The translations under genes were made by a program, and so were the position numbers. From the NCBI GenBank assembly GCA_029882975.1, contig JAOUJW010000010.1:62001-126000 (forward strand): DNA of 64,000 nt, written 5' to 3'. The notes beneath the pieces were generated by a model. It searched no databases. It saw nothing but the letters and a program-made list of their open reading frames with translations, and had not been told where the DNA came from. Of this stretch, positions 32,844-40,706 are shown one piece after another. Position 1 is the stretch's first letter. The number at the start of each line of letters is the position of its first letter. The stretch is from Gammaproteobacteria bacterium. GTDB lineage: Bacteria > Pseudomonadota > Gammaproteobacteria > SZUA-152.

Positions 32844-33047
32844 ATGAACAACGGCATTGTAAAATGGTTTAACAAAGATAAAGGTTACGGCTTTATTACA
32901 CCCAATGACGGGAGTAAGGATGTATTCGTACACTATTCGGCAATTCAGGGATCAGGGTTTAAAGAGCTCCATGAAGGGCAGAAGGTAAGCTATGAAACGG
33001 AAAACGGCCCCAAAGGTTTACAGGCTGCCAAAGTGATGCCTGATTGA
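32844..33047 (+). CDS. Cold-shock protein, CspA family
   Basis: The 67-residue product is a single OB-fold cold-shock domain with both RNA-binding motifs: KGYGFITP (RNP1) and VFVHYSAI (RNP2), preceded by GIVKWFNKD. It binds single-stranded RNA and DNA and melts structures in mRNA. The frame is open from 32760, but the ATG at 32844 has TAAGGAA at good spacing and gives the standard length. It has its own terminator. RNP1 has KGYGFIT rather than KGFGFIT, as in several Csp subtypes. Whether it is cold-induced cannot be told, but the long leader fits. Confidence 0.97.
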
Positions 33048-33069
33048 AACCACGAATTAAACAACTCAA

Positions 33070-33095
33070 AGCCCGCTTGCAGCGGGCTTTTTTTT
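33070..33095 (+). terminator. Rho-independent terminator of the cold-shock gene
   Basis: The 8-bp stem AGCCCGCT/AGCGGGCT (33070-33077 and 33081-33088) has a three-base loop and is followed by a run of T to 33095. Confidence 0.95.
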
Positions 33096-33177
33096 GCAAA
33101 ATAGAAATGGTTGAGCGCTTGACGAGAATATAAGAGATTGCTAATATACTGGCTTCGTACTCATTCAGGTGGACAAA

Positions 33178-39157: not shown

Positions 39158-39805
39158 TTGAACAGTTCTAGTGATTTTTGGGTTTTGTCATCTATGTGGT
39201 TGATTTATTATATAATTCATTCAACGTTAGCGGCTAATTCAGTGAAAAGCCGACTGTATCGCCTCCATCCGCTGGTACCTCGGTACTATCGTTTGAGCTT
39301 TAATTTGCTGTCCTTGCTGTTACTAATGCCCATCGCCTGGTTTTTGGCCGTATATCAAGCTCCGATTTTGTGGCGTTGGGACGGTGGGTGGTTGTACGTT
39401 CAAATCTTCATCACCGCAATGGTGGTGCTGGGCTTTTATCTCAGTTCTAAAGGTTATGATTTGCAGGAGTTTGCCGGATTGCGGCAATGGAATCAGCATT
39501 CTGACCCTGGGCCCATGGCTTTAACCCAATGGCATCGCTATGTGCGCCACCCCTGGTATTTTTTGGCGTTGGTTTATATTTGGAGTCGTGATATGGATAG
39601 TCTGTTCTTGTGCAGTGCTATTCTGCTCAGTTTGTATTTTTATATCGGTTCTAAATTGGAGGATCGGAAACTGTGCGAGTTATATGGTGCCACTTACCTC
39701 AGTTACTGTGAGCAAGTGCCGGGAATTTTTCCTATACCGGGTCGGTATCTTAGTAGGTCACAATGGCAGAAAATGATTACATTGAAACAAAAGCCAACTG
39801 AGTAG
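39158..39805 (+). CDS. Isoprenylcysteine-methyltransferase-like / NnrU-type membrane protein
   Basis: The 215-residue protein has about five membrane helices and the C-terminal signature of the ICMT/PEMT-like membrane methyltransferases: WHRYVRHPWYFLALVYIW followed by a second basic/acidic motif, GSKLEDRKLCELYGATYLSYCEQVPGIFP. In that superfamily these segments bind S-adenosylmethionine, and the same fold includes MddA and NnrU-related proteins. The substrate is unknown. The frame starts at a TTG (39158) with GGGTG upstream; the first in-frame ATG is at 39194. Three small-RNA candidates lie on the opposite strand just after it, and the first of their terminator hairpins may terminate this gene too. 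Confidence 0.75.
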   Translation: MNSSSDFWVLSSMWLIYYIIHSTLAANSVKSRLYRLHPLVPRYYRLSFNLLSLLLLMPIAWFLAVYQAPILWRWDGGWLYVQIFITAMVVLGFYLSSKGYDLQEFAGLRQWNQHSDPGPMALTQWHRYVRHPWYFLALVYIWSRDMDSLFLCSAILLSLYFYIGSKLEDRKLCELYGATYLSYCEQVPGIFPIPGRYLSRSQWQKMITLKQKPTE

Positions 39806-39811
39806 TGGTAA

Positions 39812-39891
39812 ACAGAAAAAGCCCGCGGGGGCGCGGGCTTGTAAGGGGGCATCTAGCATGACAACATTCCCGTTGTCATTTAGTAGAAGCT
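39812..39891 (-). ncRNA. Candidate small RNA, copy 1 of 3
   Basis: Read on the minus strand, an RNA of about 80 nt would begin near 39891 with GCTTCTAC. It forms an 8-bp hairpin ATGACAAC/GTTGTCAT around a GGGAAT loop (39858-39879), has an unpaired C-rich linker GATGCCCCCTT, and ends in the 9-bp terminator AAGCCCGCG/CGCGGGCTT (39819-39840) followed by TTTTTCTGTTT. No protein is encoded. It shares its order of parts with two further copies nearby. Ends are estimated from the -10-like box and the U tract. Confidence 0.6.
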
Positions 39892-39897
39892 GGGTTT

Positions 39898-39930
39898 ATT
39901 TTATTGCTTCAAACCTGAATACAAGCTTAA
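39898..39930 (-). promoter_or_regulatory. Promoter-like block of small RNA copy 1
   Basis: On the minus strand a 33-nt block begins TTAAGCTTGTATTCAGGTTT and ends in a TAAAAT -10-like hexamer. The same spacing and similar bases precede copies 2 and 3. Confidence 0.5.
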
Positions 39931-39989
39931 TGATTTGCCCCAACTATAAAAAATTTAGTTTTCAAATGTGTTAACAAAAAAGCCGCAGA

Positions 39990-40069
39990 TAAAAACAAGC
40001 CCGCGGGGGCGCGGGCTTGTCCAAGGGGGCATCTAGATGTAACTTTCATCCGTGTGTTACTGTAGAAGC
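39990..40069 (-). ncRNA. Candidate small RNA, copy 2 of 3
   Basis: The minus-strand RNA would start near 40069 with GCTTCTAC. Its 5' hairpin has a 5-bp stem GTAAC/GTTAC with the loop ACACGGATGAAA, which includes a GGA core as in CsrA sites. It repeats the linker AGATGCCCCCTT of copy 1. It ends with an 11-bp perfect terminator ACAAGCCCGCG/CGCGGGCTTGT (39995-40020) followed by TTTTTATC. Terminator and linker are almost identical to copy 1 while the 5' hairpin sequence differs, which suggests selection on structure and on the linker. Confidence 0.6.
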
Positions 40070-40075
40070 GGATTC

Positions 40076-40108
40076 AGTATACGACACAAAATCTGAACAC
40101 GTGCTTAA
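40076..40108 (-). promoter_or_regulatory. Promoter-like block of small RNA copy 2
   Basis: On the minus strand the 33-nt block begins TTAAGCACGTGTTCAGATTT and ends in TATACT, a near-consensus -10 box. Its spacing to GCTTCTAC matches copy 1 to within one base. No good -35 is visible, so an activator may be needed. Confidence 0.55.
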
Positions 40109-40150
40109 CAATTGATCTTTGATGGACACTATTTTTGTTTTATAAGAGCA

Positions 40151-40222
40151 GAAAAGAATACAGCCCGTCCAGGCACTGAAACGGGCTGTAGGGGACCTGA
40201 ATGACGCAATGAACATTCAGGC
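40151..40222 (-). ncRNA. Candidate small RNA, copy 3 of 3 (diverged)
   Basis: On the minus strand an 8-bp hairpin CCTGAATG/CATTCAGG (40196-40221) is followed by the linker TCCCC and a 10-bp perfect terminator TACAGCCCGT/ACGGGCTGTA (40159-40190) with a TTCTTTTC tail. The order hairpin, C-rich linker, terminator matches copies 1 and 2, but the sequences differ and the loop has no GGA. The 5' end is less certain. Confidence 0.5.
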
Positions 40223-40227
40223 CTGTG

Positions 40228-40260
40228 TAGTTAACGCTGTTAACCTTAATATAACCTTAA
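40228..40260 (-). promoter_or_regulatory. Promoter-like block of small RNA copy 3
   Basis: The minus-strand block begins TTAAGGTTATATTAAGGTTA and has the same 33-nt length as the other two. Its -10-like end (TAACTA) is weaker, and a TATATT inside it is an alternative -10. Confidence 0.35.
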
Positions 40261-40298: not shown

Positions 40299-40706
40299 AT
40301 GTCGAAAGATCCGCATATAAGCAAAGCGGTTAATAAAATCATTCAATCTGCTTTAGATGGAGACCCGCTGGAGAAATTAAAGATTCCACTGCGACAATTT
40401 GCACAGGAGCGGGATTGGGAGCAGTTTCATTCACCTAAAAATTTAAGTATGGCATTGGTCAAAGAGGCGGCGGAGTTGGTAGAACATTTTCAATGGCTGA
40501 CCGAACCCCAAAGCTATGCGTTGGAGTCGGATAAGCGGGATCAAGTGCGCTATGAGATGGCAGATATACTCATTTACCTGGTTCGAATCGCCGACCAACT
40601 GGATATAGAATTATTGTCGGCCGTCAAAGAGAAAATCCAAATAAATAAAAACAAGTACCCTGTCGATAAGGTCAAAGGCAGTTCTAAAAAATATAACGAA
40701 TATTGA
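40299..40706 (+). CDS. MazG-like nucleotide pyrophosphohydrolase (dCTPase/XTP3TPA type)
   Basis: The 135-residue protein is a small all-alpha NTP pyrophosphatase. The motif NLSMALVKEAAELVEHFQW supplies the E-x-x-E pair and YEMADILIYLVRIADQ the E-x-x-D pair that bind magnesium. The size and these motifs match the RS21-C6/XTP3-transactivated-protein group, which hydrolyse modified or excess dCTP. The ATG at 40299 follows TTGGAG; a TTG directly before it is not needed. The C-terminus is lysine-rich. It is monocistronic and divergent from the small RNA candidates, so its promoter lies within or beside the copy 3 block. Confidence 0.88.
   Translation: MSKDPHISKAVNKIIQSALDGDPLEKLKIPLRQFAQERDWEQFHSPKNLSMALVKEAAELVEHFQWLTEPQSYALESDKRDQVRYEMADILIYLVRIADQLDIELLSAVKEKIQINKNKYPVDKVKGSSKKYNEY

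Follow-up and report, generated by a model that had tools for sequence, protein, structure and literature searches.

Three tandem C-rich small RNA candidates behind PhoP-type promoter boxes in a gammaproteobacterial genome

Three tandem units on the minus strand at 39812-40231 of the 64-kb window (the whole stretch of DNA analyzed here) are each predicted to encode a small RNA (sRNA) and are each preceded by a PhoP-type promoter box. Since relatives carry such RNAs elsewhere, the units look like members of an undescribed regulatory RNA family. We consider it probable that this is a PhoP-type-activated, C-rich and presumably Hfq-dependent family of sRNAs that block ribosome-binding sites. Computation supports the structures, the promoter architecture, their conservation, the covariation of the stems and the presence of this box at a PhoP-like operon; transcription, activation by the PhoP-like regulator, Hfq dependence and target repression are inferred from there. 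What goes beyond the first-pass annotation of this DNA is the common PhoP-type promoter, the tandem array of a sister species and the long form in sister genera.

The units lie between the gene of a 215-aa protein without a Pfam match (39158..39805, plus strand, convergent with the sRNAs) and the gene of a MazG-like nucleotide pyrophosphohydrolase (40299..40706, plus strand, divergent from the sRNAs). The first-pass annotation had described this region as gene-free, and no credible ORF was found between the two flanking genes; its three units with the minus-strand order of hairpin, unpaired C-rich linker and GC-rich terminator, with stems of 9, 11 and 10 bp, were all recovered. Predicted lengths are 73-81 nt when transcription is taken to start 7 nt past the -10 hexamer; the first nucleotide is then a purine that lies at the 5' hairpin or immediately ahead of it. 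Unit A (about 40069 to 39989, minus strand) is predicted to be an 81-nt sRNA composed of a 5' hairpin, a linker (GATGCCCCCTT; GAUGCCCCCUU in the predicted sRNA) and a terminator with a perfect 11-bp stem (39995-40020). Its paralogue, unit B (39891 to 39813, minus strand; 79 nt predicted), has an identical linker (GAUGCCCCCUU) and a 9-bp terminator (39819-39840). The divergent member of the set, unit C (40222 to 40150, minus strand; 73 nt predicted), contains a 9-bp hairpin, the linker UCCCC (TCCCC in the DNA) and a terminator with a perfect 10-bp stem (40159-40190). The terminators carry U-tails, and the terminator loop is also C-rich in units A and B. Compared with dinucleotide shuffles, the predicted RNAs fold with z = -4.9 (A), -5.4 (B) and -5.8 (C), and none of 200 shuffles folds as well. 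The likeness of copies 1 and 2 in linker and terminator, noted in the first pass, holds but is in fact wider, as units A and B share 76% identity over a 115-nt stretch that takes in the promoter, which indicates gene duplication. A and B are thus adjacent homologous genes with a common seed, as sibling sRNAs are, and C is divergent. CsrA-type GGA loops occur in the 5' hairpin loops of A and B and are missing from the loops of the relatives, so they are not a conserved feature.

The promoters of the three units share one architecture, TTMAG-N5-R-TTMAG followed by 10-11 nt and a -10 hexamer, with the unit starting at a fixed distance. The promoter of unit A (40076..40108, minus strand) consists of the box TTAAGCACGTGTTCAG, N11 and TATACT, and its direct repeat with an 11-bp period has the same spacing as in other members. 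The corresponding elements are TTAAGCTTGTATTCAG, N11 and TAAAAT for unit B (39898..39930, minus strand), and TTAAGGTTATATTAAG, N10 and TTAACT for unit C (40229..40260, minus strand), in which both half-sites are TTAAG. The full architecture occurs at exactly three sites on both strands of the 64 kb, one before each unit; the shorter pattern TTMAGN6TTMAG was observed three times against 0.55 expected, a number reached in 0/100 shuffles. A purine precedes the second half-site in every short-form member, and across 24 genomes of the family the strict promoter pattern matched 47 times, compared with 6 for a reversed control. The published PhoP consensus of Pseudomonas aeruginosa is GTTCAGNNNNNRTTCAG (PMC3156716). 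The window box agrees with this box (GTTCAGN5RTTCAG; consensus from PMC3156716), and the promoters of the P. aeruginosa PhoP regulon show the same direct repeat and half-site spacing as those described here. A TTCAG-type direct repeat with an 11-bp period upstream of the -10 hexamer, the arrangement of PhoP-activated promoters, is therefore present. In P. aeruginosa, PhoP acts as a repressor of retS and rsmZ, and its sites there fall downstream of the -10 region and ahead of the start codon (PMC3156716); unlike those sites, the box here lies upstream of the -10 hexamer and hence in an activator position. As a separate observation, the sister species G001 has a TTAAG-N6-TTAAG repeat with the flank of unit A (TTGTTAAGCACCTGTTAAGATTTTGT) upstream of a gene for a PhnD-like substrate-binding protein (L016:1500-1530).

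A DNA search retrieved a triple tandem array in G001, which belongs to the same genus (L014), and one copy in another genus (L013). The covariance model R1, built from the transcribed part only of four sequences, gave 45 matches when applied to the 24 family genomes, 9 of which were accepted as members, down to 28.7 bits. These are units A and B of the window and seven members in G001, G002 and G004, so a covariance search, as suggested in the first pass, returned seven relatives in three other genomes. All 9 accepted members have a perfect 10/10 box, which lies 39-43 nt upstream of the match in 8/9 and 65 nt upstream in G004:C26, a member with a longer 5' part; the other 36 matches have boxes of at most 8/10 and resemble ordinary terminators. 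The coincidence counts as evidence because R1 was built without the promoter, and it is not fully blind because the 36 matches were rejected partly for the missing box and their plain-terminator look. It is a largely independent computational test that links the RNAs, apparently an undescribed family, to a specific two-component promoter. Unit A is in the alignments of both R1 (89.2 bits) and the promoter-plus-RNA model R2 (111.3 bits). Unit B scores 53.8 bits with R1 and 79.8 bits with R2, though it is outside both models, and unit C, which was included in no model, scores 22.4 bits with R2 (E about 0.004).

G001 holds four members, and gene neighbourhoods differ between the member loci examined. 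Synteny with the MazG-like neighbour did not lead to relatives: the 80 loci retrieved in this way belong to distant bacteria, and the members found sit in other neighbourhoods. Neither short- nor long-form members were detected outside the family with R2 and R3 (a model of the 3' part of the long form) among 369 genomes sampled from the class, where weak members could be missed owing to stricter filters and four weak R3 matches were left uninspected. The outside-family matches looked at were without box and terminator-like, and a weak R2/R3 match within the window (32974-33097) is a plain terminator.

In an alignment of ten members fitted to the structure, and therefore leaning toward it, 95% of cells pair, against 35-47% when the alignment is slid, and both-side changes occur in 8/16 pairs against 2.7 expected by shuffling. 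The arms of the 5' hairpin differ in sequence and are still complementary in 8/9 members listed, with the diverged G004:C26 pairing partly. The stems do covary in related genomes, a point on which the proposal of sibling small RNAs had been made to depend; that proposal is now well supported by the common promoter, the terminator, the covarying stems and the relatives in three genomes. The linker stays rich in C. Units A and B and three of the G001 copies have GCCCCCU, the remaining G001 copy has GCCCUCU, and both G002 and one of the G004 copies have GCUCCCU; the other G004 copy, with AUCCUUU, is more diverged. Before the last paired base, the short forms contain 119 unpaired C versus 24 unpaired G in total (89 versus 15 in the seven relatives, 30 versus 9 in the window's three). 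One point against the proposed reading is that runs of C, which appear in the loops of several relatives, are missing from the 5' hairpins of both A and B. The unpaired C-rich region that characterizes anti-Shine-Dalgarno sRNAs is present.

In the genera g3 (seven genomes) and g5, the same box precedes a predicted RNA of 161-191 nt with several unpaired C-rich patches (L184:1540-1722, L185, L188, L189, L190, L206, L207 and L215:1570-1730). This long form has a CCCCGC terminator stem, and at the loci whose surroundings were read a PmrB/QseC-like kinase gene lies upstream of it. Unpaired C number 24-39 per molecule and unpaired G never exceed 4 (232 versus 20 over all long forms), and no Rfam match was found in three of its loci searched. 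R3 also picks up both short forms of G004, at 26.7 and 23.2 bits, which hints, without proof, that the long and short forms may share common descent. Two architectures, tandem short copies and one long multi-patch RNA, thus stand behind one promoter in sister genera and offer a testable case for the evolution of sRNA dose and seed number.

The own genome encodes a PhoP-like response regulator with a PhoQ-like kinase (G000:C19), which follow a cytochrome c gene and have a box of the same type, TTCAGTTTGTATTCAG. The best NCBIfam models are PhoP for the regulator and PhoQ for the sensor (202 bits versus 91 for the next), and the proteins are named only PhoP-like and PhoQ-like because the curated cut-offs are not reached. 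Orthologues of the regulator occur in 18 other genomes of the family at 66-76% identity, and a TTCAG repeat lies 0.5-1.5 kb upstream of its gene in 13/13 genomes examined, the own genome included. In G001, only a paralogue of the PhoP-like gene was found in an assembly that is 91% complete and in 290 contigs. The PhoP-like protein is the best candidate for the activator of the sRNA promoters. The PhoP/PhoQ-like pair at L102:4173-6774 follows a small cytochrome c gene, a neighbour that seems unusual. A second regulator/kinase pair, in the RR2 operons (L168, L169, L170 and L171), is preceded by a TTCAG repeat at a distance of about 2.1-2.2 kb, and the operon at L168 also includes cytochrome b561, c-type cytochromes and a small PepSY-like protein.

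We propose that the three tandem genes encode trans-acting sRNAs, each of which would be transcribed independently from its own sigma70-type promoter. An OmpR/PhoB-type response regulator, most plausibly PhoP of the pair at G000:C19, would bind TTMAG-N5-R-TTMAG about 10-11 nt upstream of the -10 hexamer. The resulting RNA of 73-81 nt would expose its C-rich linker (CCCCC(U) or UCCCC) between an architecturally conserved hairpin and an intrinsic terminator. Most likely, the partners of the C-rich patches are G-rich ribosome-binding sites in target mRNAs, with pairing probably helped by Hfq, so that translation would be repressed while the two-component system is active. Multiple copies may provide a higher dose and a more diverse seed, and in the sister genera one long RNA with several C-rich patches would act behind the same box. 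An Hfq gene is encoded in the own genome, and together with the C-rich patches it would fit translational repression at G-rich ribosome-binding sites. The first-pass suggestion that the linkers pair with Shine-Dalgarno sequences stays a hypothesis. A scan of the own genome for perfect 9-nt complements of the linker (UGCCCCCUU) returned 39 sites without enrichment at start codons or ribosome-binding sites; one of them (L280, a lipoprotein gene at G000:C31) has a clear Shine-Dalgarno position, which is at chance level. PhoPQ in other bacteria senses low Mg2+ or envelope stress. A broader and still tentative idea, to which we give a low probability, is that a family-wide PhoP-type system drives C-rich RNAs mimicking the 16S anti-Shine-Dalgarno sequence, short and tandem or long and multi-patch, as a sponge or as a broad brake on translation at G-rich ribosome-binding sites under Mg2+ or envelope stress.

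The same sRNAs might instead be activated by a PmrA/QseB-like response regulator (RR3 or RR2). In two sister genera a PmrAB/QseBC-like regulator-kinase pair (RR3) immediately precedes the long form, and a TTCAG repeat is found about 2.1-2.5 kb upstream of RR2 operons in 5/7 genomes. Counting against the PhoP-like protein itself, G001 has four sRNA members and no PhoP-like gene was found in its fragmented assembly. Several half-sites are TTAAG, both of them in unit C, and such variants also resemble PmrA/QseB-type sites. We nevertheless regard this assignment as rather unlikely, because the box occurs upstream of RR3 loci in only 2/20 and of the PhoP-like operon in 13/13, and in six g3 genomes the strict pattern has just two sites, one by the PhoP-like operon and one by the sRNA.

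Another alternative concerns the action of the RNAs, which could titrate a protein, such as Rho or an RNA chaperone, rather than pair with Shine-Dalgarno sequences. Rho favours C-rich unpaired RNA; the strong excess of unpaired C over G, the repeated patches of the long form and the lack of target enrichment at ribosome-binding sites all agree with titration. Rho sites, however, are long and unstructured, whereas the patches here are short (about 4-10 nt) with stable stems between them, and A, B and three of the G001 copies all retain the linker sequence CCCCCU, as would suit a seed for base pairing; we judge titration unlikely. A further reading, that the units are only decorated transcription terminators and repeats with no functional RNA, agrees with the many weak model matches in the family that are plain terminators. 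The members have perfect boxes at fixed spacing, a covarying 5' hairpin, a kept linker and unrelated gene neighbourhoods, which makes this explanation very improbable. Activation by the PhoP-like regulator and pairing with ribosome-binding sites remain the preferred reading.

No Rfam family exceeded the gathering threshold for the units, in agreement with the first-pass remark that no named family has this arrangement; the best sub-threshold scores (20-22 bits) are at chance level, and the matches to AgvB, Trp leader and CRISPR repeat were dismissed as such. MgrR and PinT are enterobacterial sRNAs activated by PhoP/PhoQ, and PinT, at about 80 nt, is alike in size to the units (PMC12721325). 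The units differ from both in their C-rich linkers, tandem copies and lineage, with no sequence relation seen, and may represent a PhoP-type sRNA arm outside enterobacteria. The Neisseria siblings NgncR_162/163 are adjacent, 78% identical and block ribosome-binding sites through single-stranded regions (PMC9973317). Units A and B are likewise adjacent with their 76% identity over 115 nt, but have two stem-loops versus three in the Neisseria siblings, and the box present here is not mentioned in the available part of that report. IsrR has stem-loops and several exposed C-rich regions that act on Shine-Dalgarno sequences (PMC9410917), and such exposed regions are common to IsrR, other staphylococcal C-rich sRNAs and the units. 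IsrR is controlled by Fur and belongs to Firmicutes, and homology with the units was neither seen nor expected. Elsewhere in the own genome, downstream of gltD (L246:1495-1509, G000:C1), an element of the form CAUCUA-hairpin-GCUAGAUGCCCCCUU shares 15 identical nt with the linker of unit B; it has no box or clear terminator, and the preceding hairpin after gltD carries a CCCCUCCUCCUC loop.
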